Shown: piece by piece, positions 4,812 through 30,930 of the stretch
Layout of the letters: each line of letters opens with the position of its first letter
Numbering within the stretch: the stretch's first letter is position 1
Assembly (NCBI GenBank): GCA_003645385.1
Contig: QNEY01000002.1
Location: 1 to 33,259, forward strand
Length of the DNA stretch: 33,259 bases
Direction of reading: 5' to 3'
Origin: Gammaproteobacteria bacterium
GTDB taxonomy: Bacteria; Pseudomonadota; Gammaproteobacteria; Nitrosococcales; Methylophagaceae
Program-made: the position numbers and the translations under genes
The notes under the pieces: model-generated
Database searches by the model: none
What the model saw: only the letters and a program-made list of their open reading frames with translations
Told to the model about the DNA's origin: nothing

Positions 4812-5171
4812 ATGAAGATTGATAATGTATACAATGAAGATTGCATAACGACAATGAGCAGGATGCCTGATGGGTTTGTTGATCTGGTGGTTACTTCTCC
4901 ACCTTATGATAATATGCGGACATATAACCAGGACATTGATAAATCTTGGGGTGATCATGTTTGGAAGCCGATTATCAAGGAGTTATTCAGGGTAACTAAG
5001 CGTTGGGGTAAGATACAACTTATGGAAAATAGCAAATCTTTCCCAGCTAGGTGTTGAGGAGCAATTAAGAACAAAAGAAAATGGATTGGATCAGAATTAT
5101 CAAGCGAATATTGCGATATTATCAACAAGAGAATCGGTATTGTAATGAGCCAATTAATGATTGATTTTTAG
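4812..5171 (+). pseudogene. Decayed DNA methyltransferase, remnant 2
   Basis: A GGAGG-like site (AGGAGGCGGAG) precedes ATG 4812. The first 81 codons encode a normal methyltransferase N-terminus: YNEDCITTMSRMPDGFVDLV, then TSPPYDNMRTYN (motif IV, S/D-PPY type) and IIKELFRVTKR. The frame stops at TGA 5055-5057. In the same frame, beyond the stop, comes GAIKNKRKWIGSELSSEYC and then DIINKRI, the usual C-terminal KRKWIGxELxxEYxxIxxKRI block. It ends at TAG 5169-5171. The middle of the protein, including the DPFxGSGTT motif, is absent. This is a second methyltransferase that has lost its centre, and it ends exactly where the iteron-like block begins. TGA serves as a normal stop elsewhere in the window, so recoding is unlikely. 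Confidence 0.8.
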
Positions 5172-5452
5172 TGTGTAAAATCACCCGAATTTTGACCAGA
5201 TTATAGACGTGGAATTGAGTGTTGAATATTGGCTCAGAAATGGGCTGTTTTTAGGGGTTATTTGCCAATGACAATTTTAAAATCAAAATTGTCACAGATT
5301 GCAAAAAATTGTCATAAAATTGTCATTTTAGTTAGGTTGCTAATAGTACGGTTCCGAAGCAATGACAAATTTGCATCTTTTTATGACAAAAATGACAAAC
5401 CCACTTTTAAAATTGTCATAGGTCAAGTTGTTGCGGCACAGCATTATAAGAA

Positions 5453-5481
5453 AAGTGCAATGACAAATTTTATTTGCACTT
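5453..5481. repeat. Perfect inverted repeat enclosing an iteron
   Basis: The arms AAGTGCAA (5453-5460) and TTGCACTT (5474-5481) are perfect reverse complements. They are separated by 13 bases that contain TGACAAATTT. There is no T-tract, so it does not look like a terminator. It is more likely a protein-binding site or origin hairpin. Confidence 0.6.
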
Positions 5482-5536
5482 AAAGCTATACAACACATAG
5501 AGTTAAAGCGAATCTATGACAAATATGACAGTTTTT

Positions 5537-5550
5537 TTACGTAAACGTAA
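5537..5550. repeat. TTACGT-AA-ACGTAA inverted repeat
   Basis: Two 6-bp arms are separated by AA. The element sits just downstream of two TGACA sites and upstream of the TATATA-rich stretch. It has the size and symmetry of a dimeric repressor or initiator binding site. No binding protein can be named. Confidence 0.4.
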
Positions 5551-5744
5551 GGGAATAAAAATATATGTATATATAGGGTAAATAGAGAGAATATGTATAA
5601 AAAGCCAATATATATATAAAACATAGCGAAAAACTGTCATTTCTGTCATAAACTGCCCTAAAACATTGACTACGACCAGCCGGAAGGCACTTTTCAAAAT
5701 TGTCACAAAATAATTTTTAGAGGATAAAAACAACAGGAGGATTA

Positions 5745-7103
5745 ATGGAGCAAATTAACATTGATTTTGAGGCTAAAAAACAGGCTATTTTTTGCATGCA
5801 AAAAGGCACCATAAAACTACGAGATTATCAGCAGAATATTTATGAGGAAGCGATTAACATTTTGAACAAATACGGTCTCGTTTATCTGGCACTTGAAACC
5901 AGGCTCGGCAAGACATTTATTGCAGCATTTCTGGCTGACAAATTTCTAAAGGATCAGAACCAGAGTTTTCTATTTGTCACGAAAAAGAAAGCGATCCCAA
6001 ACATAAAAGAGAATCTCGAGGATATGGGATTGGCTGCCAGATGCAAATTGATCAACTATGAGTCAGTTCACAAGGTCAAAGAGTTTTATCCTGTTATCAT
6101 TCTGGATGAGGCTCACAGGCTCGGGTCATTCCCGAAAAAGTGTAAAGCAGTCAAAGTGCTTGAGAGGATGACAAGGAACTCATTGATCATTTACCTGTCA
6201 GCTACACCAACACCGGAATCATTAAGCCAGATTTATCATCAATTGCAACTATCCTCACATTCACCGTTCACTCAATATGCTAACTTTTACAAATTTGCTC
6301 GCAAATACGTCGACGTGAAGCAAAAGAAGATAAAAAAGGGTTTATCTGTTAACGATTATTCAAATGCCCGAGAATCGCTTATTATGCCTTTGATTGCTCC
6401 GCTCACTATTAAGTACACTCAGGAGCAAGCAGGATTCCCATTCCCCGAGATTGATGAGCGGATCGAGTTTGTCAAGATGAATGATAATGTTAAGTTGTTG
6501 TCAAACATACTATTAAAGCATAGCTTCTATCAGAGTAAGTTACAGCCGGAGTATTTTATTGACATCGGCAGTGCAGCGGATATGCAAAATAAGATACACC
6601 AAATCAGCTCAGGCAGTGTAATTTTCAAAAATGACCAAGATGAGCCGGAGTATATGATTCTGGATGAGGCGAAAGGCAGGCGATGCAAGCAATTAATCAA
6701 GGGCAAGAAAACAGCTATATTCTACAAATTTATAGGCGAGAAAAACATCATAGAATCTACCTTAGATCAGTGTAACTTAACCAATGACCCGATTGAGTTT
6801 GAGTCTAATAAAAATTGCGTGTTTTACGGCCAAATACAAGCCGTTAAGGAAGGTATCAAGCTAAAGTCAGCAGAACAGATCATTTTCTTTAATATCTCGT
6901 TCTCTTGGACGGATTACGCTCAGGCAAAGAACCGACTACAGGACATGCACCGGGAGCATCCCCCTAAGCTGATCTGGTTATTCTCAGAGGATGGAATTGA
7001 GCAGAAGATATATAAGCGACTGATGAAGAAAAAAAGCTTTACAACAATACACTTCAGGGCAGACTATGACTACAAGTATGTAAAAAAACAGGAGCAACAA
7101 TGA
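5745..7103 (+). CDS. Superfamily 2 DNA helicase (DEAD/SNF2-like)
   Basis: This 452-residue ATP-dependent helicase or translocase of the phage replication module starts after a strong CAGGAGG site. Motifs appear in order: a Q-like region KLRDYQQNIYEEAI (about 24-37), Walker A ETRLGKT (about 51-57), the motif II box LDEAH (about 119), and motif III YLSATPTPES (about 150). The C-terminal RecA-like lobe has KKTAIFYKFIGEK, QAVKEGIKLKSA and a motif VI region SWTDYAQAKNRLQDMHR. The length fits compact phage SF2 helicases. It overlaps the VRR-NUC gene by four bases (ATGA), a pairing common in phage replication modules. The iteron block lies directly upstream. Confidence 0.85.
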   Translation: MEQINIDFEAKKQAIFCMQKGTIKLRDYQQNIYEEAINILNKYGLVYLALETRLGKTFIAAFLADKFLKDQNQSFLFVTKKKAIPNIKENLEDMGLAARCKLINYESVHKVKEFYPVIILDEAHRLGSFPKKCKAVKVLERMTRNSLIIYLSATPTPESLSQIYHQLQLSSHSPFTQYANFYKFARKYVDVKQKKIKKGLSVNDYSNARESLIMPLIAPLTIKYTQEQAGFPFPEIDERIEFVKMNDNVKLLSNILLKHSFYQSKLQPEYFIDIGSAADMQNKIHQISSGSVIFKNDQDEPEYMILDEAKGRRCKQLIKGKKTAIFYKFIGEKNIIESTLDQCNLTNDPIEFESNKNCVFYGQIQAVKEGIKLKSAEQIIFFNISFSWTDYAQAKNRLQDMHREHPPKLIWLFSEDGIEQKIYKRLMKKKSFTTIHFRADYDYKYVKKQEQQ

Positions 7104-7456
7104 GCGAGCAAACAATACAATCAAGGATAATGAAGGATATCAATAGCCGGAAGGGTTGTCACGCTTTTAAGATTGTCAGTGCAAGTAAAGCAGGCTGTCC
7201 GGATATATTAGCCTGCATCAATGGTCACTTCATCGGGATGGAGATCAAGAAGCCTGGTGAGATTCCTACACCACAGCAGGCACACCGACTAACTCAGATT
7301 AGATCATCTGGCGGCGTCAGTGTCTGGTTTGATAGCTTTGACAGTTACTTTGACTGGATTGAACGGTTCATTCCTAGGGCACTATTTGAGGTGGATGATT
7401 CGTTCCGTGAGTTAGCACCGCCAACGGCAAAAATAATAGAGGAGTTGATGATATAG
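7100..7456 (+). CDS. VRR-NUC domain nuclease
   Basis: This is a 118-residue single-domain nuclease of the VRR-NUC (PD-(D/E)XK-like) family, likely acting on branched or replicating DNA. The core is visible as KIVSASKAGCPDILACINGH, with the catalytic Asp in PDI (about residue 35), then FIGMEIKKPGE (about 46-56) giving the E-x-K pair, then TPQQAHRLTQIRSSGG, the usual Q-rich helix. It starts in an ATGA overlap with the SF2 helicase, so the two are translationally coupled. It is the last gene before the late promoter. Confidence 0.85.
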   Translation: MSEQTIQSRIMKDINSRKGCHAFKIVSASKAGCPDILACINGHFIGMEIKKPGEIPTPQQAHRLTQIRSSGGVSVWFDSFDSYFDWIERFIPRALFEVDDSFRELAPPTAKIIEELMI

Positions 7457-7467
7457 CAAAATAATAC

Positions 7468-7495
7468 TTGACAAGTGTTTTAATGCGGATAGAAT
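7468..7495 (+). promoter_or_regulatory. Sigma70-type promoter for the late (packaging/structural) operon
   Basis: A perfect -35 TTGACA (7468-7473), a 16-base spacer and -10 TAGAAT (7490-7495) lie in the 69-bp gap between VRR-NUC and the small terminase gene, with an expected start near 7502. It is the best promoter sequence I found in the window and sits exactly at the boundary between replication and packaging genes. Confidence 0.7.
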
Positions 7496-7525
7496 ATGGT
7501 TGAGAGATTGAGAGGGGGCTGAATA

Positions 7526-8119
7526 ATGCTAATGCCTGCACACCTGCAAGCTGAGTTGATGGATCGCTTTAGTCTTACGGACAAACAGGTTTACGCTGTT
7601 TACTTGGGTGTGTTACATTATCCTATTCCTGCCGATTTCAAGTTGGCTTTACAGCTTGCAGGGTACAAAGACGATTCAAAGACCTTAACAAACACAGCTA
7701 ACCGATTAAATAAATGCAAAAAAATAATTGCACTGCGAAAATATCTCAAAGCGAAACGAAAGAGACGTGATGATGATATTGAGCTTACGGACGAGAAAGC
7801 ATTATTGACAAGCATCATCAAGCATGATCCAGCTGACCTGTTCAAGGTTGAGATGATTGACAAGTATAATGCAGGTGAGGTTGTAGGATCAAAGCCGGGA
7901 ATCAGGCAATTAGCTGTCACGGAGTTGCCGGAGAAGACAAGACTAGCTTTGAAGCATGTACGCTCACACACTGACAAATACGGTCAAGTACACTTTGAGT
8001 ACATCGCACATGATAAGATTGAAGCGATTAAAGCAAAGGCAGACATTAAGAACCCTAAGACGGAGAAGGATCAATTCGAGATAGTATTCGAGGAGCGGCG
8101 CAATGAAGAAGATCATTAA
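7526..8119 (+). CDS. terS: Terminase small subunit (probable)
   Basis: This 197-residue protein directly precedes and overlaps (17 bases) the large terminase gene. Its N-terminal region (RFSLTDKQVYAVYLGVLHYP... then LNKCKKIIALRKYLKAKRKR) is helical and looks like the DNA-binding part of small terminases, where a helix-turn-helix is followed by a basic segment. The acidic C-terminal tail (EIVFEERRNEEDH) would contact the large subunit. It should recognise the packaging site. GAGGGGG (about 7512-7518) supports ATG 7526; ATG 7532 is possible. The assignment rests mainly on position and general character. Confidence 0.7.
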   Translation: MLMPAHLQAELMDRFSLTDKQVYAVYLGVLHYPIPADFKLALQLAGYKDDSKTLTNTANRLNKCKKIIALRKYLKAKRKRRDDDIELTDEKALLTSIIKHDPADLFKVEMIDKYNAGEVVGSKPGIRQLAVTELPEKTRLALKHVRSHTDKYGQVHFEYIAHDKIEAIKAKADIKNPKTEKDQFEIVFEERRNEEDH

Positions 8120-9365
8120 GTTTGCTCCTGATTACTTTTTGCCACATCAGCAAGAGTTCCTTGATTCAGAGGCTAAGCAGAAGGCATTAGTCACCGGTTA
8201 TGGTGGCGGCAAGACGTTTGCGTTCATCTGGGAAACATTCATGAACCATCTATTCCTTGTCAATAAGGAAGGTCAATCAAACGGCTGGATAGTTTATCCT
8301 ACATTCAGCATGGCAGAAGAGCTGTTTGTTGAGCCGTTCTTAATGCTATTAGATAGATACGAGATAGATTACAAGTACAATTCAACAAAGCATCTGATAT
8401 CCTCTGAGTATGGTAAACTTAGACTGTATCAACTCCAGACTCCTCATCGGATGGTAGGTGCAGAGCTGACATTCTTAGGGTTTGATGAGTTTGACATTGG
8501 CAGTTACAAGAACTGTGACATAGCATACAAGAAGGGTGTTGGACGATTAAGAGGCAGCAATAAGACCAAGATGTACTTTGTCACTACACCAGAGGGATAT
8601 CATTACATACACAAGCTATTTGTTGAGGATAATGAGGAGGGCGAGCGGCACTTGATCAAAGCCAAGTCAACCGACAACCCTTACTTACCGGCTGACTACA
8701 TTGATGATCTCAGAAAGAACTATGACAGCAAGCTAGTAGAGCAGTACATGAACGGTGAGTTTGTCAATCTGCGAGGCTCTGCGGCTTACTACGAGTTTGA
8801 CAGAGAGCGACATTGTAAAGATTTTGGCATTCACAACGCTGAGAAGAAGCCACAGGTGTTATATATGGGGATGGACTTCAATGTTGATCCGATGTCAGCA
8901 GTTGTGGCAATCAAGCGAGATAATAAACTAATTATGTTTGATGAGATAATTTTGCGGAACAGTAACACCCGGCAGATGATCGATGTGATCAAAGAGCGGT
9001 ATCCGGGTGCATATATATCAATTGCACCTGACCAGACAGGCGGCAGCCGTAAGACATCGGCTGAGATTGGAGTAACGGACATCCATCTATTAAAGCAGGC
9101 AGGTTTCAAGATACTTGGCAGCGGCACAAACCCAAGTGTCAAGGATAGCTTGAACGCTGTCAATGCGGCTCTATATCAAGGTAGACTAGAGATTGACAAG
9201 CGATGCACTGCATTGACAAATGACTTTGAGAAGGTCGTGAGAGATGATGCAGGTGAGATTGACAAAAAAGATAGTAATCTTTCACATATTTCAGATGCAG
9301 GTAGATATTTAGTTTGGTCACAGTTCCCATTATACGGATCAGCAATAAGGACAAGAGGCAGATAA
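8103..9365 (+). CDS. terL: Terminase large subunit (ATPase and nuclease)
   Basis: This 420-residue packaging motor powers DNA entry into the procapsid and cuts the concatemer. The ATPase domain has Walker A GYGGGKTF (about 32-39), Walker B TFLGFDEFD (about 122-130) and coupling motif YFVTTPEG (about 157). The RNase H-like nuclease domain has GMDFNVDPMSAVVA (about 256) with the first catalytic Asp, APDQTGG (about 307) with the second, and SHISDAGRYLVW near the C-terminus with the third. It overlaps both the small subunit gene and the portal start (TAATG). Confidence 0.92.
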   Translation: MKKIIKFAPDYFLPHQQEFLDSEAKQKALVTGYGGGKTFAFIWETFMNHLFLVNKEGQSNGWIVYPTFSMAEELFVEPFLMLLDRYEIDYKYNSTKHLISSEYGKLRLYQLQTPHRMVGAELTFLGFDEFDIGSYKNCDIAYKKGVGRLRGSNKTKMYFVTTPEGYHYIHKLFVEDNEEGERHLIKAKSTDNPYLPADYIDDLRKNYDSKLVEQYMNGEFVNLRGSAAYYEFDRERHCKDFGIHNAEKKPQVLYMGMDFNVDPMSAVVAIKRDNKLIMFDEIILRNSNTRQMIDVIKERYPGAYISIAPDQTGGSRKTSAEIGVTDIHLLKQAGFKILGSGTNPSVKDSLNAVNAALYQGRLEIDKRCTALTNDFEKVVRDDAGEIDKKDSNLSHISDAGRYLVWSQFPLYGSAIRTRGR

Positions 9366-10756
9366 TGACATTAATACAGAATGGCAAGAGACTAGCCAAG
9401 TGGCGGCACAACATAGAGCGACAGCTTGACATTGCTGAGAGGATAGCATTCTTGGACAATCGACAAAAGGATTTTCTGTATGCTGACTTGAGGCTGATAT
9501 TCCCTGAAACATACGCCCAGATGGTTAATTTTGCTTTATGCTTGCCGACAACCCAAGAGATAATCGAGGAAATCTCAATGATATTCCAAGAGCCTCCGAC
9601 AATAACCTTGCCAGATGATGAGGAATTGGAAGAGAACTTGGACCAGATGCTGAAGAAATCAAGATTGGGCATCGTCCTGAATGATGTGAATAAGCTAGTC
9701 AACTTGACAAATATGGTGGGTGTAATGCCTGTATATAGAGATGGTAGAGTTGACCTGGATGTATTGACAGGCGATAATCTATTTGTAACTCAATCAGATG
9801 CAGACCCGACACAGGCTGAAGCTGTGTATTATCAATATGGGATAGTAGAGGACTCACCGACAAAGGCGGAGAGCATATGCAAGTATGTCAAATTAACAGC
9901 TGACACAGTGTCATTCGTCGAGATCAACGCACACACGGGTGAGATTGCGAACGAGACAGATGTTGAGTATCACGGATATAATCAGATCCCAATTGCATGG
10001 TTTACGAATACGGTACAAACTAACACATTCTGGCCAACAAAGGATTGTCCTGTGGTGGAGTGCAACCGAAAACAAAATATAGTAGCAACTGACAAGATGC
10101 TGGCATTGAACATGACAGTACCTACATATTACCAGACTACGAGTCAGGAAAGTACAGACAGCGGCACTGTCATTGGTCGATTGGGTGTCATTAATCTACC
10201 TATGGAGTACGGCGGAGGTCAAGCAAGTTGCGGCTATGTGCAACCAGACTGGACTATCGACAAGATGGATGCAGCTATCGAGGAAATGAAAGTAGTTGTC
10301 GGATTAGCTTATGGGATTAACCCTGACACGCTGAGATCAAAGGGCGGTAGTGCATTTAGCTCTGGATACCAGATGCGATTGGCACAACAGACGCTGATGA
10401 ACCGGATCAATAAGGAGAAATGGTTTTATTTAGAGTCTATCGAGGAGCTGATCAGGCTGATGATGGCATGTAGCACAATGAATAATGACAAGTCATTTAG
10501 TAATGCAGAGAGCATGCGAATATTAGTTGACCTTGCACCTATTACGTTTGACGAGTCACCGATTGACACATTAGATTATTTAGAGCGTTTGGTGATGGCA
10601 AATATTATATCTCCTGCGGAAGCAAAACGGATTATCTCAGGCAGTGAGATGTCAACAGATGAAGCAATGGAACAGATTAAACAAAACAAAGAAATGAAAG
10701 AAGAATTGAGGGGCGGGATTGATCCGCTTGACCAGACAGAGGCATTAAATGACTGA
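9365..10756 (+). CDS. Portal protein
   Basis: This 463-residue protein forms the dodecameric DNA entry ring at one capsid vertex. The start is set at ATG 9365 in a TAATG overlap with terL; an upstream in-frame start at 9314 would overlap terL by 52 bases and is unlikely. The N-terminal wing (MIFQEPPTITLPDDEELE), a central region with VMPVYRDGRVDLDVLTGDNLF, and a long helical C-terminal region with GINPDTLRSKGGSAFSSGYQ match SPP1 gp6-like portals. The final acidic tail overlaps the next gene by eight bases. Its position after terL is canonical. Confidence 0.85.
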   Translation: MTLIQNGKRLAKWRHNIERQLDIAERIAFLDNRQKDFLYADLRLIFPETYAQMVNFALCLPTTQEIIEEISMIFQEPPTITLPDDEELEENLDQMLKKSRLGIVLNDVNKLVNLTNMVGVMPVYRDGRVDLDVLTGDNLFVTQSDADPTQAEAVYYQYGIVEDSPTKAESICKYVKLTADTVSFVEINAHTGEIANETDVEYHGYNQIPIAWFTNTVQTNTFWPTKDCPVVECNRKQNIVATDKMLALNMTVPTYYQTTSQESTDSGTVIGRLGVINLPMEYGGGQASCGYVQPDWTIDKMDAAIEEMKVVVGLAYGINPDTLRSKGGSAFSSGYQMRLAQQTLMNRINKEKWFYLESIEELIRLMMACSTMNNDKSFSNAESMRILVDLAPITFDESPIDTLDYLERLVMANIISPAEAKRIISGSEMSTDEAMEQIKQNKEMKEELRGGIDPLDQTEALND

Positions 10757-11528
10757 CAAAATCTATGAGGCTAGTGTTGACAAGTACAACAGGCTGATTG
10801 ACAAGGCTACTGACAAACTTAACAAGTCAGTTGCTCTGTATGTCAAGGATTTTGATGTTGACAAACTAGGTCGGATCACCAAATCAAAGGCAAACCAGAA
10901 GTTGGTTATGAACTTTGACAGATGGCTACGGTCACAACTCGGATCAAGCGGATATGATGGAGTGTTGGTTGATTTTGCGAAGGATACAAAGCCGTTTATT
11001 AATAAGGTTATTGACTGGCAGGCAACCGAAGCGGGAGCGGGTGTTATTCCAATAGTGTTGAAGTCCACTGACATTTCGTCGATTGTAGCAATGCAGAAGA
11101 TTGACTACAGTCTTTTGGACAACCGGATCACCGCATCAATAAGTTCAATAAAAGAGCAGCTGTATAGGTCAATGGTACTGGGTGAGGAGTGGAGTTCTGC
11201 AACAGGATTTATCAAGACATCATTAGATAAAAATTTACAACAGTACACACAGACATATATTAACACATCCCGGAGCTTATTAATCCAGGAGATGGAGGAT
11301 GTTTCTGCAAGTCATATATCTGGTGAGCATTATTGGGAGTATATTGGCCCCGACGACAAGAAAACAAGAGAAATCTGTGTTGAGGCTCTGAACAAGAAAG
11401 TATTTACAGACGATGAGCGGCAGGCATACATTGACGAGCACGGTGTCAGGTATAATTGCCGACATATATTTATGCAAATCACGAAAGAGTATTACGAAGA
11501 GTATTCAGGAAATGAAATTGACAAATAA
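10749..11528 (+). CDS. Minor head/morphogenesis protein, Mu gpF-like
   Basis: This 259-residue protein follows the portal gene with an eight-base overlap. The N-terminal half is helical (MTDKIYEASVDKYNRLIDKA). The C-terminal domain carries the family signature: YIGPDDKKTREICVEALNKK, then FTDDERQAYIDEHGVRYNCR and H, with Cys and His residues placed as in Mu F-like head proteins. These proteins are found in the procapsid and often near the portal; some are ejected or help assembly. Its last codons (E-I-D-K-stop) lie within the first copy of the 15-bp repeat that flanks the next gene. Confidence 0.8.
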   Translation: MTDKIYEASVDKYNRLIDKATDKLNKSVALYVKDFDVDKLGRITKSKANQKLVMNFDRWLRSQLGSSGYDGVLVDFAKDTKPFINKVIDWQATEAGAGVIPIVLKSTDISSIVAMQKIDYSLLDNRITASISSIKEQLYRSMVLGEEWSSATGFIKTSLDKNLQQYTQTYINTSRSLLIQEMEDVSASHISGEHYWEYIGPDDKKTREICVEALNKKVFTDDERQAYIDEHGVRYNCRHIFMQITKEYYEEYSGNEIDK

Positions 11529-11529
11529 C
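11515..11529 (+). repeat. 15-bp direct repeat, left copy (flanks the Acb2/Tad1-like gene)
   Basis: AAATTGACAAATAAC occurs here, across the stop codon of the Mu-F-like gene, and again at 11856-11870, just at and after the stop of the small gene. The copies are perfect and 341 bp apart, so one unit equals exactly the gene plus its leader. It contains TTGACA (11518-11523); with a weak AATAAC at 11540-11545 (N16) this could form a gene-specific promoter. Confidence 0.8.
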
Positions 11530-11546
11530 CAAATAACCAAATAACA
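11523..11546 (+). repeat. Short tandem repeat, AAATAACC x3
   Basis: Three contiguous 8-bp units (AAATAACC, AAATAACC, AAATAACA) fill the leader between the head gene stop and the AAGAAGG ribosome site of the next gene. This looks like replication slippage at the edge of the flanking direct repeat. Confidence 0.7.
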
Positions 11547-11560
11547 AGAAGGATAGAACG

Positions 11561-11857
11561 ATGGCGTTGAGCACACTAAAAGGGATTGAACTAGGTGATT
11601 TTATTACAGTTGATCACGACACTAACACAATCAGCTTTAAGATCCAGAATGGAGCAATTAAGGAGAATGGATTGAATGGTTGTCAGGTTGACAACATGAT
11701 TGAAACTGCCAAAATTATTATTGAAGGGCTGAACAAGAACTTCCCATCTGATTTTAATACTTTTGCAATTGAAGGACTAGACAAGTCATTGATTGCATTA
11801 AAAGAAAGAAAAAAAGACAGAGAGCATAGAGGCGTTGAAGGTTTTGAAAAGAAGTAA
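11561..11857 (+). CDS. Probable Acb2/Tad1-family cyclic-nucleotide sponge (anti-CBASS/anti-Thoeris)
   Basis: This 98-residue protein is preceded by AAGAAGG. It has a short beta-rich N-terminus (TISFKIQNGAIKENGLNG) followed by two helices (VDNMIETAKIIIEGLNKNFP, then FNTFAIEGLDKSLIALKERK) and the end KDREHRGVEGFEKK. The pattern ...ENGxNGxQxDxxIE...FP...NxxAIxxLDxALxxLxxRxxxREx RGVEG is what I remember for the Acb2/Tad1 hairpin family. Those phage proteins bind signalling molecules such as cGAMP or gcADPR and so block CBASS or Thoeris defence. The usual Thr after GVEG is Phe here. It is an odd gene to find between head genes, and it is bracketed by a 15-bp direct repeat. The family assignment is from memory of the motif, not a search. 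Confidence 0.65.
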   Translation: MALSTLKGIELGDFITVDHDTNTISFKIQNGAIKENGLNGCQVDNMIETAKIIIEGLNKNFPSDFNTFAIEGLDKSLIALKERKKDREHRGVEGFEKK

Positions 11858-11870
11858 ATTGACAAATAAC
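11856..11870 (+). repeat. 15-bp direct repeat, right copy
   Basis: This second perfect copy of AAATTGACAAATAAC lies at and immediately after the TAA of the Acb2/Tad1-like gene. Recombination between the copies would delete the gene cleanly and leave the head operon intact. Confidence 0.8.
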
Positions 11871-11910
11871 ACAACCATCGAGAACAGAACTCGTAAAAAT
11901 GGAGGTACAA

Positions 11911-12471
11911 ATGGATTTTAAGGCAATCTTAGCCAAACATGGGATCGAGAACGAAGCTGTCATTGCTGACTTGCAAACAGCTATTGACACATCTAACATG
12001 ATACCCAAAAGCAGATTTAACGAGGTGATCAGCCAGCGAAATGATTTACAGGCTACTAACACAGAGCTTGAGAATAATCTTGCAAAGGCAACCGCTAACT
12101 TGGGCGATATCAAGGTAAAACTCACATCGGCAAAATCTGAGAGTGCAAACGCACAGGAAGAATTGAAGGTGTATGTTGACAAACGTAATGAGCTGATGCT
12201 TGCAGACTGGAACAAGAAGTCTGCTGTTTTCGACGTCAAGAAAGGCGACGCCAATTTTGAGAAGTTTGAGAAGATCAAGCAAAAGTTCAAATTTGCTGAC
12301 AAGGATACACCGTTAACTCCTGAGCAAGTTGACAATAATCTATCACATTACAGGACATACGACGAGATCGGATATTTCGGAAGTGATAATACAAACGCAC
12401 CTGCATTACCGAAGGGCAAAAGCAACAATGGTAATCCGGTGAACAAATTAGACGAAATATTCCCAACATAA
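11911..12471 (+). CDS. Capsid scaffolding protein (GP20-like)
   Basis: This 186-residue protein is placed directly before the major capsid gene. The start is set at 11911 because GGAGG (11901-11905) lies six bases upstream; an in-frame ATG at 11899 is part of that ribosome site. MIPKSRFNEVISQRNDLQAT is the signature seen in phage GP20-type scaffolds. A long coiled coil follows (ELENNLAKATANLGDIKVKL to about residue 90). The C-terminus is basic then Asn/Pro-rich, as expected for a capsid-binding tail. It should guide procapsid assembly and leave before packaging. Confidence 0.82.
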   Translation: MDFKAILAKHGIENEAVIADLQTAIDTSNMIPKSRFNEVISQRNDLQATNTELENNLAKATANLGDIKVKLTSAKSESANAQEELKVYVDKRNELMLADWNKKSAVFDVKKGDANFEKFEKIKQKFKFADKDTPLTPEQVDNNLSHYRTYDEIGYFGSDNTNAPALPKGKSNNGNPVNKLDEIFPT

Positions 12472-12488
12472 AAAAGCGAGGTTAAAAA

Positions 12489-13409
12489 ATGGCTAATACA
12501 TTAGGGAAGCTGGTAAAGGCATGGGCTGGAGCTGGTGAAGAACATCTTGACGATGTATCAAAACATTCTGGATTACTTGAGGTTCTTTCTTTTAGAGGAG
12601 CTTCACATGGTCTTTCTGACAAATTCAGGATGAAAGTAACATTGCCGGGCAACTCTAACAGAGGTTTGAACGGTGGAGTTATTCCAACAAGCGGAACGGG
12701 CAAGTTGCTCCAACAGGATTTAGCATTGATCGACTCTCTCGAAGAAGTTGACAAGACAGAAGCCGAAGGGTACCCTGGTGGAGTGAACGCTTATTTCAAA
12801 AGCGAAACACCCGGACATATTGAGAGCATGTTACAGACTATTGCCTATCAAATGTTCTACGGAACAGGCAACAACAAAACCATCAAGGGCTTTGCACAGT
12901 ACGCAATAGACAACGGCAAGGCAACAACTTTAGGCGGTTCAGCTGGTAATGATATTTTCTGTGTAACGCTTAAAAAGAATGTTTGCGAAGGATTGTATAA
13001 TGCACAGGCTGTTAATGCAGGCAATCTTGTGACTGTAGAGAATGTGAGTGGCCCAGCTGGTGTTTACAAGGTTCTTGACACTACTACAGGCGAAGAGCTG
13101 AAAGTGTTACAGACTTCTTTTGAGTCTCGTATTGGATTAAGAGTTGGAGCACAACACAGTGTTGCAACACTCACCAATGTTGATGCAACTCATAAGCCAA
13201 CAGCAGCAAACTTGCTGACATTGATCAGAGCAGCAAAAGCAAAACCGTCAACATCATTCATCTTCGCAAACCAAAAGACTCTTGACTGGATTGGCGGCTT
13301 GAAGGCGGCAATGATGGAAATGGGTCCAATGGATACAAATTTTACTCAGTTCGTGGGCAAATTCGAGGGAATCCCTTTGATGCTTGACGAAAACATTCCA
13401 GAAGTTTAA
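12489..13409 (+). CDS. Major capsid protein
   Basis: This 306-residue protein directly follows the scaffold, the canonical position for the shell protein, and its length fits a compact HK97 fold. Recognisable parts are a helical N-arm (MANTLGKLVKAWAGAGEEHL), an E-loop-like Gly-rich segment (RGLNGGVIPTSGTGKLLQQD), a spine-helix/P-domain region (HIESMLQTIAYQMFYGTGNN followed by KTIKGFAQ), and a C-terminal A-domain-like segment (TSFIFANQKTLDWIGGLKAA; GKFEGIPLMLDENIPEV). YGTGNNKTIKGF resembles the YG(N/D)...GL box of many phage capsids. A GCGAGG ribosome site precedes it. Confidence 0.82.
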   Translation: MANTLGKLVKAWAGAGEEHLDDVSKHSGLLEVLSFRGASHGLSDKFRMKVTLPGNSNRGLNGGVIPTSGTGKLLQQDLALIDSLEEVDKTEAEGYPGGVNAYFKSETPGHIESMLQTIAYQMFYGTGNNKTIKGFAQYAIDNGKATTLGGSAGNDIFCVTLKKNVCEGLYNAQAVNAGNLVTVENVSGPAGVYKVLDTTTGEELKVLQTSFESRIGLRVGAQHSVATLTNVDATHKPTAANLLTLIRAAKAKPSTSFIFANQKTLDWIGGLKAAMMEMGPMDTNFTQFVGKFEGIPLMLDENIPEV

Positions 13410-13419
13410 AGGAGAAAAC

Positions 13420-13869
13420 ATGGCTATTCCAAATCAAGGTCATTTAATAGATGACAATTCGATCCTTGCAGTTAGTACAGCCGCTTCGGGGACTCTTCCT
13501 GATGGCTCAAGTGCATTGGCAGGGGTCGCCAGTGATGCTGTTTTTATTGGCCCCACTGCAAATGCAGGGCTAACAATTACAGCAATCGCAAAAACAGAGA
13601 TCACTATTGCAACGGCAAAGCTCTTATCATTCGAGGTTCTTTGCGGGACAACTGCAAGTAATTGTGCAATTCCGGTTGCAGGGCATGTGTTACCATTCAA
13701 TATCAACGCAGTTGATGATGAAGTTGTTATTGCAGCAGGCGACACGCTGTTTGAGTACACTATTCCACCAACTTTGTTTGGTGCTAATACTTATGTGCAG
13801 CTCAAATCATGGGCTGATGAAGACCAAAGTGGATCTTCTTACGATGCTTTCATTTCGATGACTGTTTAG
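13420..13869 (+). CDS. Capsid decoration/stabilisation-like protein
   Basis: This 149-residue protein starts 10 bases after the capsid gene; AAAGGAG (13408-13414) fixes ATG 13420 over an earlier in-frame start inside the capsid gene. It is almost entirely beta-strand, rich in Ala, Thr and Val, with no membrane segment. ITIATAKLLSFEVLCGTTAS, VVIAAGDTLFEYTIPPTLFG and the end QSGSSYDAFISMTV recall jelly-roll cement proteins such as Bbp16. Its fold and several motifs recur in the N-terminal half of the next gene product, so one may have arisen by duplication of the other. The decoration role is inferred from position and composition. Confidence 0.6.
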   Translation: MAIPNQGHLIDDNSILAVSTAASGTLPDGSSALAGVASDAVFIGPTANAGLTITAIAKTEITIATAKLLSFEVLCGTTASNCAIPVAGHVLPFNINAVDDEVVIAAGDTLFEYTIPPTLFGANTYVQLKSWADEDQSGSSYDAFISMTV

Positions 13870-13943
13870 ACATTAACAAAGCCGGTGGGGGTGTTTTTAC
13901 TTCCTGTTTGCATTCTCATCGGCATAACTAAGAGAGATTAATT

Positions 13944-14801
13944 ATGGCTTATGACTGGTCGGCAACTACACTATCAACACTAGAGTCAATTGCAGCGATT
14001 GAGACCGAGATCAATCTCAGGTCACCGAGTGGCGAGGATGTCACGCTTGCGGATGAAATAGATATTGCATCGGCAACCAATCCGCTTGCCGGCTGTGTCG
14101 GGATATCTGTCACAGGCTCACAAGGTGCGGTAACACTAGCTGTGACGGCGGCAAGTGAGATCAAGATTGCTGATGGGCATTCGCTAACCGTGACATTCCG
14201 TGATTGTGCAACATTGACCGGATCATATGAAGAAATATTTCCTGGCATGATTGTGTATTATAAGCGAGCGAGCGGTGCAGACGTGACAATTGATGCAGAT
14301 ACATTATTTGCTAGTTTTGTAGTGCCTGATAGCTGTCAGGACTACATCAAGCCATATATCACATCTAGTGCAAGCAACACCGGCACTATCACAATAGCCA
14401 GTGAGCAAACTTGGCTGTCAAAGATAACAACTGCTAAATTAATGATCGGGAATATGATCCAGCAGATGTTACCTGAGTTGATAGGGGGCTATACCGGATC
14501 AACTCCTGAGTATGGTCTTGAGTACATGAGAGTAATTGATCAGGATGGTGGTGATGTATTAGATATTATTGCTAACGCTTCAGTATTTGATCTGGCAAGC
14601 GATTTGCTTACATTATCCTTGATATATGAGGACTTGATCGAAGTGCCTGAGGACGTAATGACCAGAAAGTCAGAGATGTATCACAAGCGGTTTATGGATG
14701 CTTTCGCAAATGCTAGAAAGATTATCAATCTTGATATTGATCGAGATGGAGATGTTGACAAGTATCGAGCCAAGTCAACACCAATGTTGAGGCGAATATG
14801 A
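13944..14801 (+). CDS. Decoration-like domain fused to head-tail connector
   Basis: This 285-residue protein appears to have two domains. Residues 1 to about 155 are beta-rich and resemble the upstream protein: ASEIKIADGHSLTVTFRDCA, VTIDADTLFASFVVPDSCQD, then SSASNTGTITIA. Residues about 158-285 are helical (TWLSKITTAKLMIGNMIQQM; VFDLASDLLTLSLIYEDLIE; KSEMYHKRFMDAFANARK; LDIDRDGDVDKYRAK), matching the size and character of gp6/gp15-type head-tail adaptors. It overlaps the tail-completion gene by four bases (ATGA). The 74-bp upstream gap has a G-rich stretch but no convincing hairpin. Confidence 0.65.
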   Translation: MAYDWSATTLSTLESIAAIETEINLRSPSGEDVTLADEIDIASATNPLAGCVGISVTGSQGAVTLAVTAASEIKIADGHSLTVTFRDCATLTGSYEEIFPGMIVYYKRASGADVTIDADTLFASFVVPDSCQDYIKPYITSSASNTGTITIASEQTWLSKITTAKLMIGNMIQQMLPELIGGYTGSTPEYGLEYMRVIDQDGGDVLDIIANASVFDLASDLLTLSLIYEDLIEVPEDVMTRKSEMYHKRFMDAFANARKIINLDIDRDGDVDKYRAKSTPMLRRI

Positions 14802-15256
14802 GCATAGATGCAAAGATTGCAATCAAATTGCCTAACATGGATGTGTACAAAAAAGCGGTTGATGTGACACAGCCGGAGATGCTCAAGTCAGCATTATTCA
14901 TCCGGCAAGAGATGTTGAAAAGGTTAGAAACAGGTCGAGATATTTTTCTAAAGCCGTTTAAGCCTTACGCAAAATCGACAAAAGAGTATAAAAAAGAAAT
15001 GAGGAAGAACCCAAATATAGTCAATATGGAAGATTCTGGACAGATGATCAACAGTCTGAGAACCAATGCAAAGGTCAACAGGTCAATTGTTGACATAGCT
15101 AATGCACAACGACGAAAAATAGCTGACAAGCATATGGAAGGTCGTGGAGTTCCTAAGCGGGCATGGTTCGGCTCATCCCAAAAAACAGTAAAAAAAGTAA
15201 TAGCAGACATCCGAAAAATTATGGATCAACATATTAGGAGAGCAAATGCAAAATAA
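14798..15256 (+). CDS. Neck/tail-completion protein (HK97 gp10 / Mu gpG-like)
   Basis: This 152-residue basic protein has the layout of the virion morphogenesis/HK97 gp10 family: FIRQEMLKRLETGRDIFLKP, then FKPYAKSTKEYKK, then MEDSGQMINSLRTNAKVNRS (the L-x-x-S-x-x-L box) and GVPKRAWFGSSQKTVKKVIA, the conserved R-x-W-F-G-x-S motif near the C-terminus. It would sit at the head-tail joint. It overlaps the upstream connector gene (ATGA) and the downstream gene by 11 bases. Confidence 0.8.
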   Translation: MSIDAKIAIKLPNMDVYKKAVDVTQPEMLKSALFIRQEMLKRLETGRDIFLKPFKPYAKSTKEYKKEMRKNPNIVNMEDSGQMINSLRTNAKVNRSIVDIANAQRRKIADKHMEGRGVPKRAWFGSSQKTVKKVIADIRKIMDQHIRRANAK

Positions 15257-15701
15257 ACTATCTCCAATATTGGGCGACATACGCAAATTATTAAAAGAGA
15301 TTCCGGGTGTAAAGACAGTTGGACATTATCCTGAGTATGTCAAAAATATTAAAAGCTCAAAGATGCCGGCTATTATGGTCGGTGTTGATAGTATTAGTTA
15401 CCCGGTTGACGAAGCTCAGAACATGGGCTATACAGTCATAGCAAATATTAGGGTGATGGTATATTTGAACGTTACAACCAATGTTGAGATTGCGATCCTG
15501 GATTTGAAAACAAGCATTATAAATAAACTAAATAAAGATTTATCGTTGAATCAGGAAGTATTGCTGTTGTGGCCTACCAATGTAACGATAGGTGATTTCA
15601 GCCCTGACTTTGATTTTTACACACCTAACATAAGCGAGCAGATGACATTATTCGAGATTGATTTCGAGTGCAAGTTTTGCGATGCTATAATTGATAGATA
15701 G
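15246..15701 (+). CDS. Tail terminator-like protein
   Basis: This 151-residue protein lies between the gp10-like gene and the tail tube gene, the usual place for the tail terminator. It has a helical N-terminus (LSPILGDIRKLLKEIPGVKT), strands with a central YTVIANIRVMVYLNV, a helix (VEIAILDLKTSIINKLNKDL) and a final strand (EQMTLFEIDFECKF). This alpha-beta order fits the gpU/gp17.1 terminator fold. Assignment is by position and topology. It overlaps the preceding gene by 11 bases. Confidence 0.65.
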   Translation: MQNKLSPILGDIRKLLKEIPGVKTVGHYPEYVKNIKSSKMPAIMVGVDSISYPVDEAQNMGYTVIANIRVMVYLNVTTNVEIAILDLKTSIINKLNKDLSLNQEVLLLWPTNVTIGDFSPDFDFYTPNISEQMTLFEIDFECKFCDAIIDR

Positions 15702-15709
15702 GGGGCACA

Positions 15710-15883
15710 ATGCCAAAGGGAAAGATGGTCAAGTTTGAAATAATTAAGCTAGTAACATGGCAGACAGGCGGCAAGTCATACAAGCTGGGAGCTTTGAAAG
15801 AGCTGCCTGAGCATGTAGCAAAACAATTGTCAGACTGTGGCTATATCAAAATCATTAACAATAAAAAGAATAAGGGGGCATAA
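15710..15883 (+). CDS. Small basic protein between tail terminator and tail tube
   Basis: This short gene encodes 57 residues (MPKGKMVKFEIIKLVTWQTG, then GKSYKLGALKELPEHVAKQL and SDCGYIKII). GGGGG precedes the ATG, and the stop overlaps the tail tube start (TAATG), so it is tightly coupled. The pattern Tyr-x-x-Gly...Leu-Pro-Glu-x-x-Ala-x-x-Leu...Gly-Tyr is familiar from small SH3-like proteins found in phage head-tail operons, whose function is unknown. The tight spacing and conserved look make it a real gene. Confidence 0.65.
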   Translation: MPKGKMVKFEIIKLVTWQTGGKSYKLGALKELPEHVAKQLSDCGYIKIINNKKNKGA

Positions 15884-16827
15884 TGGCTTTTCGACAGGGG
15901 GCTTATCCGCTAATGCTGATTGGCAAAGAAACAGCTTATGGCACTGAGCAGACTACACCAGAGAACAAGTTTGCAGATATTTGCACAATGCAGGCGATCA
16001 CAAACAGTATTGACAGGGCTGTCAAAACACAGACTTACGAGCCGGACTTTTGCGAGACAACAGCGGGCACAACCGGCGGAACGGTGAGCGTTTCGGGGAC
16101 ATTATCACACGGTCACGCAATTTTCTTAGAGGCGTTCTTCAGCGATGATTCTTCTCCTCATGCGTTCCAGGTTGATCCAAACACATTCCAGAGTTACACG
16201 ATTTACAACCTGTTCAATGGCGGTGAGGTATCAACAAAAACAAACTGGAAAGGTGACATAGCTATTGGTTGTGTATGTGAGTCTTTCAATATTACCGGAT
16301 CACAAGGTGGAGTAATTGGCTATGAGGCAACATTCAGGGCTAAATCGATTGCAAGAGAGCAGGACTTGTCAGGTTTAACAACTACAACAATTACAGATGC
16401 AAGCAAGCCTTGTTATATCCCGTTCAAGTTCCAGTCGGTTACTGCCGACATGCTAAATTCAACAGTGACAAGCATTAACTCATTTTCCATCAGCTTAGGC
16501 AATGAGTTTGCTGATGACACAGTTGCTTACCAAAACTCAGCAACTAAGCTCAGGGAAATAGCGGTAAAAGCAAGCGGTGAGCTTGCTTTTGATGTTATTT
16601 ATGATGCGGCTGTAGCCTTGACATATAATCCAATATTAATGGCAACAACCAACCTTGATGATGTTATCACGCTATCGGGTGGATCTGGCACGTTCATCAT
16701 TACGATGTACGGCAAATATACATCTTATGATATTGCTGATCCTGACAAGGGCGTTTATGTAACATCGATTAACAAGCAACTCCAGGCAAATGCAAGCGGC
16801 TCGGCTATCTCAATAGCTGTGTCATAA
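15883..16827 (+). CDS. Major tail tube protein
   Basis: This 314-residue beta-rich protein is found immediately before the tail chaperone and tape-measure genes. It opens with MAFRQGAYPLMLIGKETAYG TEQ, the typical IGKETxYGT start of tail tube proteins, and has repeated strand patterns with Ser/Thr/Gly (TGGTVSVSGTLSHGHAIFLE; SFNITGSQGGVIGYEATFRA; SINSFSISLGNEF) consistent with the tube fold, possibly with an extra C-terminal domain. GGGGG lies just upstream in the previous gene. No sheath gene follows, which supports a non-contractile tail. Confidence 0.8.
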   Translation: MAFRQGAYPLMLIGKETAYGTEQTTPENKFADICTMQAITNSIDRAVKTQTYEPDFCETTAGTTGGTVSVSGTLSHGHAIFLEAFFSDDSSPHAFQVDPNTFQSYTIYNLFNGGEVSTKTNWKGDIAIGCVCESFNITGSQGGVIGYEATFRAKSIAREQDLSGLTTTTITDASKPCYIPFKFQSVTADMLNSTVTSINSFSISLGNEFADDTVAYQNSATKLREIAVKASGELAFDVIYDAAVALTYNPILMATTNLDDVITLSGGSGTFIITMYGKYTSYDIADPDKGVYVTSINKQLQANASGSAISIAVS

Positions 16828-16851
16828 CAAAAAAACAAACAGGGAGGAAAA

Positions 16852-17289
16852 ATGGCAAAGGCGAAAAAAGTGAAACTAACGGAGAACACATCGGCAAAAT
16901 GGAAAAACTGTTTTATGTCAGACAATCCTGAATATATTACAGAGATATATGATGGAGAAACTCACATCGCAACTGTGAAAGGTCTATCATACTTGGATCG
17001 AGCGGCAATCAATAAAGCAGCTTTGAGCAACCAGAAGATGTATAACTTTAATGCAGATTCCGGAGAACTTGAACGAAATAAAGACGTTGATATGAATTTG
17101 GAAGCTATGCAACTAATGACAATCCATAAGGCATTAACCGGTCATCCGGATTGTTGGTTTATTGGTGGTGATGATGTATCTGTTAGAAAACTTGATAAGC
17201 TGGATCATGAGCTTATACAACTGCTCTATGTCAAAATTTCAGAGGCTAATAAAAAAGCTGAGAACATTGCAGGGCTTGAGCAAAACTAA
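16852..17289 (+). CDS. Tail assembly chaperone
   Basis: This 145-residue protein between the tail tube and tape-measure genes is preceded by GGGAGG. Position, size and the mostly helical acidic C-terminal half (LEAMQLMTIHKALTGHPDCW; LDHELIQLLYVKISEANKKA) fit the gpG-type chaperone that coats the tape measure during tail assembly. Many phages extend this protein by a ribosomal frameshift. Here I see no canonical slippery heptamer near the end: AAAAAAG occurs at about 17251, but it is out of phase for a -1 shift into the next gene's frame, which is closed by TGA at 17277-17279. Confidence 0.7.
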   Translation: MAKAKKVKLTENTSAKWKNCFMSDNPEYITEIYDGETHIATVKGLSYLDRAAINKAALSNQKMYNFNADSGELERNKDVDMNLEAMQLMTIHKALTGHPDCWFIGGDDVSVRKLDKLDHELIQLLYVKISEANKKAENIAGLEQN

Positions 17290-17300
17290 GGCGAGTCATA

Positions 17301-17612
17301 TTGCTCAACACAAGCCAAAAGCCGGTAGACTTGAGCAGTATGACAGAGACGCAGAGGGAAGGAATATTAAATGAGAATTATTGCAAATATTGCGACAACT
17401 ATCTTGACGATAAAGGGGATGTAAAGTGCAATACAAAGCAACACGGCAAGGTTATCCCGGCGGTGGACTGGATATACAACTGGGCGCTAGAGTGGAAGGA
17501 TGGCAACCGGAAATATCCATTCGGGAAAGATTGGGACGAGTTACCTTATTGGATCCCGCATTTATTACAGCGAGGTTATTTAATCTTAATGGAAGCAATC
17601 GAGGATAGATAA
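17301..17612 (+). CDS. Probable second tail chaperone / pre-tape-measure protein
   Basis: This 103-residue protein sits between the chaperone and tape measure, where lambda gpT-like products are encoded. The start is uncertain: TTG 17301 has AAGGCGAG (17288-17295) upstream, while ATG 17340 has a weaker site and would give 90 residues. It contains YCKYC then a distant VKC, and a Trp-rich segment (AVDWIYNWALEWKDGNRKYP; WDELPYWIPHLLQRGYLIL). It runs directly into the tape measure start. Expression as a separate protein is favoured over frameshifting. Confidence 0.6.
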   Translation: MLNTSQKPVDLSSMTETQREGILNENYCKYCDNYLDDKGDVKCNTKQHGKVIPAVDWIYNWALEWKDGNRKYPFGKDWDELPYWIPHLLQRGYLILMEAIEDR

Positions 17613-19385
17613 ATGGCTCAGAAAATATTGATCGAAACAGTAGTAAACACAGGCAAGGCAAAAGCTGAGGTCAAGAGCTTAGGGACATCTTTTAAAGACT
17701 TGGCAATTAAGGTTGGCGGTGCAGTAGTAGCTTACAAAGCTCTCAAGACAGCCGGTCAATTTATGTCAGAGTCAGTCAAAATGGCAAAAGAGCAGAAAGA
17801 TGTTTACAAAACTCTTGAAGTCACGATCAACAACACCGGTGCAAGCTACAAAGCGGCTAATGCAGAGCTTCAGAAACTATTTGCAACTCAGCAGAAGAAC
17901 ACGATATATGGCGACACAGAATCAGCGGCAATGCTCACAAAGCTCATAGAGCGAACAGGCGACTATGAGACTGCTGTCAATAATTTAGCACTGGCTCAGG
18001 ACATGGCAAGCTCTACTTCTTTTGACGCAAGCTCGGCAACTAATTATCTTGGTATGGCGTTAGCAGGCAATATTGAGATGCTAGGGCGATATATTCCTGA
18101 GCTAAAATCAAGTGTCAATGAGCAATTAAAGAGTATGACTGCAACGGAAAAATCAGCTTATGCAGTTGACCTACTAACAAAAAAATATGGCGGATTATCT
18201 ACAGAAGTCGATGAGAATGTACTTGCAGCGGCTAGGCTAGAGAATACTTGGGGCGATGCAAAAGAGAGTCTTGGTGACGCTTTGTTGCCTGCTGTAACTG
18301 AAGCGACAAAGGGATTGATCGGATTATCAAAGGCAGCAGAGTCATTTTTTGGGATGTTCGACACAAGCAAGGTTGCAAATGAGAGCATTGCAAGAGCAGC
18401 AGAGAACATAAAAATAATTCAAGATACATTAGTCGGTACACCCACAGCAATCCTAAAAGACGCTCTGGCAGACCAGGAAGAATATTTCAAAGGGTTGATT
18501 TCCGGCTTAGAAAAATATCCAGAGTGGCAAGATGAAGTTGAGCAGACAAGACAGAGGATTGTTGCTCTCAATAATGCGATAAAAGAGAACGCCATAGTGC
18601 AAGAGGCGGCAGCTCACGCAAGTGTTACCATTGCCGCTGAGACAAAGGCAACTGAAGAGCAAATATTAATCGATTACGTCAACAGGCAGCGAGAGATCAA
18701 CGCAGAATATGATGCTCAGGAAGGCGAGCGGTTGCAGGCTACTAGTGATAACAAGGTCAATCACACATTAGAGTTATTTGAGAGGCTGGATGCGATCAAG
18801 GCGGAGAATAGAGAAAAAGAAGTGAGGCTGGAAGAAGAAAAAAACAAAACAATCAAAGCAGGTGTGCGAACATTAGGTCAAGATTTGTTGACCTTATCTC
18901 GTTCATTCGGCAAAAAAGGTTTTTTAATTGCTAAGAGAATAGCACAAGCAAACGCTATTGTAAAAGGTGCTGAAGCGGCTGTAGCGGCTTGGAATGCGGG
19001 AATGAGTGTTGGGACTGGGCCAGTTGCACTGGCAGCAGCCTTTACATTTATGTCAATCTCTGCATCAGCAACAGCGGCACAAATCCAGCAGATTGAACAG
19101 CAGAAATATGCTAAGGGTGGCGATTTTATCACAGATGGGCCACAGTCAATATTGGTTGGTGATAATCCAGGAGGTAGAGAGCGAGTCACAATTACACCTA
19201 TGAGTTCACCAAATTATAATGGGCCACAAGGTGGCGACAATACAGACATCATTAATGCAATTGAGCGGCTGAACGAGACAATAATTGATAACAGGACAAT
19301 CGTAAATGTAGAGGCAAAAACAATTGATCCGGTAAAAGTTTATGACCTGGCACAAACAGGGCAACGGATAGCGAGCGATTTCTAA
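17613..19385 (+). CDS. Tail tape measure protein
   Basis: This is a 590-residue, largely helical protein. It starts MAQKILIETVVNTGKAKAEV with a Gly-rich hydrophobic stretch (KVGGAVVAYKALKTAGQFMS), as tape measures usually do. Long Ala/Glu/Lys helices follow, then a coiled coil (about 400-425) and a hydrophobic Ala-rich region (about 450-490, AIVKGAEAAVAAWNAGMSVG). The C-terminus has YAKGGDFITDGPQSILVGDN and GGRERV, typical of the tape-measure end. At about 0.15 nm per residue, the general rule for the family, the tail would be near 90 nm. It overlaps the next gene by one base (TAATG). Confidence 0.85.
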   Translation: MAQKILIETVVNTGKAKAEVKSLGTSFKDLAIKVGGAVVAYKALKTAGQFMSESVKMAKEQKDVYKTLEVTINNTGASYKAANAELQKLFATQQKNTIYGDTESAAMLTKLIERTGDYETAVNNLALAQDMASSTSFDASSATNYLGMALAGNIEMLGRYIPELKSSVNEQLKSMTATEKSAYAVDLLTKKYGGLSTEVDENVLAAARLENTWGDAKESLGDALLPAVTEATKGLIGLSKAAESFFGMFDTSKVANESIARAAENIKIIQDTLVGTPTAILKDALADQEEYFKGLISGLEKYPEWQDEVEQTRQRIVALNNAIKENAIVQEAAAHASVTIAAETKATEEQILIDYVNRQREINAEYDAQEGERLQATSDNKVNHTLELFERLDAIKAENREKEVRLEEEKNKTIKAGVRTLGQDLLTLSRSFGKKGFLIAKRIAQANAIVKGAEAAVAAWNAGMSVGTGPVALAAAFTFMSISASATAAQIQQIEQQKYAKGGDFITDGPQSILVGDNPGGRERVTITPMSSPNYNGPQGGDNTDIINAIERLNETIIDNRTIVNVEAKTIDPVKVYDLAQTGQRIASDF

Positions 19386-30921: not shown

Positions 30922-30930
30922 GAGATAATG

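Follow-up and report, generated by a model that had tools for sequence, protein, structure and literature searches.

What does a 98-codon gene contribute to the head gene cluster of a small phage, where it sits between the genes for a Mu-F-like minor head protein and a scaffold protein and is flanked by two identical 15-bp sequences? The locus lies in a 33,259-nucleotide stretch of DNA, hereafter the window (Gammaproteobacteria bacterium, Methylophagaceae; assembly GCA_003645385.1, contig QNEY01000002.1, positions 1 to 33,259 of the forward strand). A preliminary description of its sequence had proposed an anti-defence gene of the Acb2/Tad1 family. The gene is located as that description had it: an open reading frame (ORF) of 98 codons with an ATG start at 11561–11857 on the plus strand, its translation ending exactly in KERKKDREHRGVEGFEKK. 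As judged by sequence profiles and predicted fold, the family assignment is supported, with the evidence favouring the Tad1 side. We conclude that the gene probably encodes a short Tad1-type sponge for second messengers, which would be produced late and at the same time as the capsid; most likely, it is an ordinary counter-defence gene at an interesting location.

Sequence profiles and predicted fold point to Tad1

Searching with the window protein alone, phmmer matched phiKZ gp184 (8y6v, E-value 1.5e-5) and CmTad1 (8kbb, 1.3e-3). The signal strengthened with a profile of seven relatives (CmTad1 1e-15, gp184 1.2e-8, CbTad1 about 6e-7) and again with a profile of 39 aligned family members (6e-18, 2.5e-10 and 7e-8, respectively). 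Four of the seven relatives matched the Pfam family PF24729 (Acb2_Tad1_hairpin; best 2.1e-7), and L006 and L064 scored above its 27-bit cut-off. Residues 21–98 of the window protein also matched PHROG 2428 (131 positions, no function annotated) at 9e-16, the first 52 profile positions being unmatched. A PADLOC scan of the window protein gave no match, and there was no Acb2 chain among the listed matches of phmmer, of both profiles or of Foldseek.

The AlphaFold2 model (predicted local distance difference test, pLDDT, 81.9; predicted template modelling score 0.71) has strands at residues 15–18 and 23–26 followed by helices at 43–60 and 64–90. Its pLDDT is 88–97 across residues 41–90, and confidence is low at residues 1–10 and 31–40. 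The structure search that the preliminary description had called for returned Tad1 as the best fold match: each of the 12 top-ranked Foldseek matches is a Tad1 chain (probability 0.98–1.00, E-values 0.006–0.13). In structural alignment (VIA), CmTad1 reached Z 9.8 (root-mean-square deviation 5.2, 84 aligned residues) and CbTad1 Z 9.6 (4.7, 85 aligned), with the first unrelated row at Z 6.9, about 3 units below Tad1; the model superposes on 8smd at 0.9 Å over 58 residues. No Acb2 structure was listed in the fold comparison of either this model or that of the L006 protein, which is not evidence of absence. According to the model, a C-terminal two-helix hairpin in the Tad1 arrangement is present.

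Homology to experimentally solved Tad1 proteins thus assigns the 98-residue protein to Tad1 by sequence, and we rate it as a new, short member of this known kind. With CmTad1 (8kbb) and CbTad1 (7uav, 7uaw, 8kbf), its best matches by both sequence profile and fold, it shares the C-terminal helical hairpin, the pair of arginines and the EG tail and, with CmTad1, the GxNG loop. It differs in length, 98 residues versus 125–132, being shorter on the N-terminal side, where the model has two strands and the Tad1 sheet has four (PMC12043709). Acb2, at 94 residues, is comparable in length and has the hairpin domain (PF24729) in common, whereas the window protein has a predicted beta-hairpin before the helices.

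The protein is the shortest of its family and keeps the invariant residues

IMG/VR scans supplied 8 and subsequently 43 family loci; a genome collection and a same-genus genome added one each. The alignment of 39 rows does not include L041 and L053, which have no usable protein, or L054, whose C-terminal end differs. The 39 rows form one family, starting with MALETLKG and ending with DRExRGVEG, with 15 invariant positions, and the window protein retains all 15. R83, R87, E93, G94, G37 and N39 are identical in 39/39 rows and N66 in 38/39. For the ligand pocket of CbTad1 we assume the residues F82, N92, R109 and R113; N66, R83 and R87 of the window protein align with this list and are kept. Together with its form in a sibling contig described below, the window protein is the shortest of the family at 98 residues, the other 37 rows spanning 112–137. 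The absent segment falls after the MALETLKG start and before the beta-hairpin, and in the model of the 135-residue member L006 it holds one strand and two helices.

A sponge probably made together with the capsid

The gene follows the genes for the large terminase, the portal and the Mu-F-like protein, and precedes those for the scaffold and the major capsid protein:

8103–9365, plus strand: large terminase (Pfam Terminase_6N, E 2e-10; Terminase_6C, E 5e-11)
9314–10756, plus strand: portal protein (Pfam SPP1_portal, 9e-7; PHROG 533 portal, 4e-9)
10749–11528, plus strand: Mu-F-like minor head protein (Pfam Phage_Mu_F, E 1e-3, under the family cut-off)
11515–11529, plus strand: left copy of the 15-bp direct repeat, coding for the final residues and stop of the Mu-F-like protein
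11522–11545, plus strand: three tandem CAAATAAC units in the leader (from the sequence)
11547–11553, plus strand: AGAAGGA, a likely ribosome-binding site 7 nt upstream of the ATG (from the sequence)
11561–11857, plus strand: short Tad1-type sponge gene, 98 residues, as assigned by sequence profiles, fold and family alignment
11675–11689, plus strand: codons of the conserved N39-G40-C41-Q42-V43 block; positions 11679, 11680 and 11685 are different in the sibling contig (G40V, Q42R)
11856–11870, plus strand: right copy of the 15-bp direct repeat, identical to the left copy
11899–12471, plus strand: scaffold gene (PHROG 194 head scaffolding, 5e-6)
12489–13409, plus strand: major capsid protein, GP7-like (Pfam GP7, 1e-16; PHROG 212 major head protein)

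The true start of the scaffold gene may be the ATG at 11911, which is preceded by GGAGG.

From homology, fold, conservation and gene order we infer how the protein would act. A two-helix hairpin preceded by a small beta-hairpin, it would form an oligomer, by analogy with solved Tad1, and bind nucleotide second messengers of Thoeris and/or the cyclic oligonucleotide-based antiphage signalling system (CBASS) without cleaving them; with the messenger sequestered, the death effector would stay off. Tad1 proteins bind glycocyclic ADP-ribose (gcADPR) as well as cyclic dinucleotides and cyclic trinucleotides (PMC12043709, PMC12657218), Tad1 is described as a gcADPR binder (PMC10022894, PMC11025887), and major capsid proteins switch on the Thoeris systems of staphylococci and streptococci (PMC12578639). 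The position in the head cluster, directly before the scaffold and major capsid genes and without a clear promoter of its own, suggests late, capsid-linked production; as some Thoeris systems sense capsid protein, the sponge and the trigger would then appear simultaneously. Regarding possible targets, ThsB_TIR matches are found in 4 of the 29 genomes of the assembly's genus and SMODS matches in two (one over the cut-off). A search for STALD (ThsA-type) found none in the 29 genomes and is uninformative, since the controls were equally without a match.

The location also raises the alternative that the sponge is packed in the head, perhaps together with the Mu-F-like protein, and injected with the DNA so as to be active from the first minute. 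The C-terminal part of phiKZ gp184 is the best or second-best relative of the window protein among solved structures, and gp184 belongs to the same hairpin family and is likewise head-linked. Validation of gp184 as an injected protein has been published (PMC10449902), and a review calls the phiKZ Tad1 injected and describes it as blocking CBASS and Thoeris (PMC13282480). With phiKZ bringing in its Tad1 along with the virion, packaging has to be taken seriously as an alternative; the window gene also adjoins the genes for the Mu-F-like and scaffold proteins. However, gp184 has 230 residues, and its long N-terminal part, outside the match at about 156–226, is missing from the 98-residue protein, for which no packaging signal is known. 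Presence in the virion is shown for gp184 and is a guess for the window protein, and most family loci are without demonstrated terminase adjacency. On balance, we consider packaging unlikely.

Could the Tad1-like fold instead have been reused for head assembly or decoration, with signal binding lost? The gene's place between the Mu-F-like and scaffold genes would fit such a role, as would the distant relatives L058–L060, in which another gene, of about 194–208 residues, fills this slot, and the phage BcepC6B, where a hypothetical gene separates gp07 from the annotated head-tail adaptor, before the major head gene. The altered REN and W positions, discussed below, point the same way. Against this, all 15 family-invariant residues, R83 and R87 included, are retained, and homologues occur in many other genome places; we regard an assembly factor as very improbable, and a sponge as the better account of the gene.

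The surroundings of the other family members bear on the link to the capsid. L035 has, in order, terminase, portal, Tad1, an unknown gene and the major head protein; L006 has terminase, Tad1, minor head and portal. For at least 10 of the 38 loci, a large terminase is no more than three genes away from the family member. The near-copies L004, L009 and L032 are excluded from the counts of neighbours and of repeats, and L003, the window itself, from the neighbour count as well. Before the PHROG scans, two of the neighbour sets were trimmed, one from 105 proteins to 94 and the other from 113 to 89, losing almost every minus-strand ORF and a small number of others. Separately, the Tad1-type gene in L037 (629–1278) is immediately preceded by an 89-residue gene that matches the Acb2/Tad1 hairpin weakly (24.9 bits against a cut-off of 27), an arrangement that is possibly an Acb2–Tad1 pair.

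Several observations weigh against a capsid-linked Tad1 sponge. The window protein itself has no Pfam or NCBIfam match at E up to 1, and its best Foldseek E-value is 5.8e-3, with none below 1e-3. About 37–40 N-terminal residues of most relatives are absent. The REN motif (R in 21/39 rows, E in 32/39) reads DFN, and position 79 is A, versus W in 26/39 rows. L021, L044, L045 and L052 also carry YN at the former site, and the REN change is therefore a recurrent alternative rather than clear decay. L57 stands at the CbTad1 phenylalanine position, a leucine shared by 37/39 rows. Family members occur far from head genes as well. For the distance to terminase we take about 5 of 38 loci as the chance expectation in a 50-gene phage, a rough estimate of our own; the observed count is about twice this, making the link to packaging genes modest. 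Finally, the assembly that holds the window, which is 76% complete and which, from the binning, we assume to be the phage's host, has no ThsB_TIR or SMODS match.

A sibling contig differs in the conserved NGCQV block

The contig IMGVR 3300014913_000128 (L072) spans window positions 5303–20912 and has the gene in the same flanking context. Of the 15,610 bases compared, all but four agree with the window: 5636, which is intergenic, and 11679, 11680 and 11685, which all fall in the 98-residue gene within 7 bp, while the 13 other genes counted contain none. The changes, G40V and Q42R, strike the conserved NGCQV block, where G40 is G in 38/39 rows and Q42 is Q in 37/39. The three clustered differences are best read as one multi-base event. 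It is striking that they fall in the most conserved loop of the sole counter-defence gene found, a pattern noticed post hoc and for which an assembly error in one sample is possible. Mutation of the diversity-generating retroelement type was rejected as a source of the three differences, just one of the three window bases being A.

The sibling could be taken to show a sponge in decay, the N-terminal loss and the two substitutions marking a gene that is losing function. The window protein is the shortest of the 39 rows, its REN and W residues are changed, and the sibling's changes hit a near-invariant block. Yet the frame is intact, the ribosome-binding site is good, the hairpin is predicted with confidence (residues 41–90) and the window copy retains every invariant residue, so that we find decay quite unlikely. 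A further idea is that a minimal Tad1 in the head operon, packed or co-made with the defence-triggering capsid, has an NGCQV loop that is now changing in nature, either to switch ligand specificity or to escape a host counter-measure. Panoptes is a guard that reacts to sponges, and a Panoptes-like guard would be one example of such a counter-measure. We put this forward as speculative and, like decay, of low probability.

The 15-bp repeat is weak evidence for a mobile unit

The preliminary description also took the gene for an insertion, a cassette that recombination between the two repeats could add or remove. Its description of the repeats is accurate: AAATTGACAAATAAC is present at 11515–11529 and 11856–11870, both exact copies, the left one encodes the final residues and stop of the Mu-F-like protein (...E-I-D-K-stop), and the three CAAATAAC units in the leader are there. 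These are the sole two exact copies in the whole 1.9 Mb assembly. The right copy begins on the last two bases of the 98-residue gene's own stop and, read in the same frame, gives I-D-K-stop. The repeats bracket exactly the gene and its leader, a 341-bp unit.

How unusual is this? The window body (the window with its terminal repeat and end tandem array excluded) contains three exact 15-mer pairs, and this pair is the only one within 500 bp. In simulations matched for composition, at least one equally close exact 15-mer pair arose in 5, 9 and 7 of 100 runs (Markov order 2, 3 and 4, respectively). Flanking one gene picked in advance, a repeat of this length is rarer: none of 780 random control placements reached a 15-bp flanking repeat, and one reached 14 bp. 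Across the 39 family loci tested, the flanking repeat is 15 bp for the window, 11 and 10 bp for the next two and 5–7 bp for the others; a repeat of at least 12 bp was found in none of the other 38. TTGACA has 50 copies on the plus strand and 30 on the minus strand, and its frequency in this phage reduces the information content of the repeat. As both copies also spell in-frame I-D-K-stop, their identity may partly reflect codon habit. The CAAATAAC triplet points to slippage nearby. The TTGACA in the repeats was also considered as a promoter element and rejected: no promoter-like site begins at either copy, and the scan found 14 promoter-like sites versus 12.8 expected.

A cassette that comes and goes should leave relatives with a single AAATTGACAAATAAC at the empty site, and the comparison that the preliminary description had asked for found none: the searches turned up no close gene-free relative, and the distant ones carry another gene. 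In an IMG/VR search for relatives of the capsid and Mu-F-like proteins, only L058–L060, besides the window and its sibling, have a related Mu-F gene, likewise placed between portal and scaffold. With a protein identity of just 28–33%, these loci neither show nor exclude an empty 15-bp site; the L059 record has no Tad1 match, and its slot gene no Pfam match. A whole-genome search of 59 related genomes for Mu-F relatives recovered the window alone. Searched against named phages, the portal had no match and the major capsid protein one weak match, to BcepC6B, leaving no close phage for the empty-site comparison.

An exchangeable 341-bp unit would explain why the repeat brackets gene and leader so exactly, at a length that the control placements did not attain, and why different genes fill the slot in distant relatives. 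It is opposed by the missing empty site, by the 38 family loci without such repeats, by the share of simulations (5–9%) with a close 15-mer pair somewhere, and by the sibling, which keeps the gene with identical flanks. We therefore do not uphold the cassette, which appears unlikely. The repeat is a real local oddity, without parallel in the family, yet weak evidence for a mobile unit; it is most likely a trace of the gene's arrival, or a product of chance or slippage, rather than a working switch.

Other features of the window

The window is contig 2 of the assembly, and the same contig is present in IMG/VR (20,855 bases compared letter by letter). Its first 123 bases are identical to its last 123, and a pentapeptide-repeat gene built of 15-bp units (32614–33259 joined to 1–123) crosses the contig ends and gains a further C-terminal part once these are joined. 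The identical ends, together with a gene that stays open across the joined overlap, are consistent with a phage genome that is complete and either circular or circularly permuted. The intergenic stretch 5160–5745, ahead of a helicase-like gene, is rich in TGACAA/TTGTCA motifs, with 6 copies in one orientation and 5 in the other, and also contains an 11-bp AAAATTGTCAT tandem; its appearance suggests an origin or an array of regulator-binding sites. At 30928–32073, the encoded protein resembles a Gp3-like recombination directionality factor (PF18897, 4.6e-33).

Implications

The titles and abstract openings of the Tad1 literature that we searched, a coverage that most subscription papers fall outside, contain no Tad1 in the head operon of a small phage. 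With the gene described here, Tad1-type sponges would extend down to 98 residues and occur in the head cluster of small uncultured phages. There, synthesis of the sponge would coincide with that of the capsid, to which some Thoeris systems respond. Should the NGCQV variant be real, the window gene and its sibling form would provide a natural allele pair for asking what sets the ligand choice of Tad1, or how hosts select against sponges.
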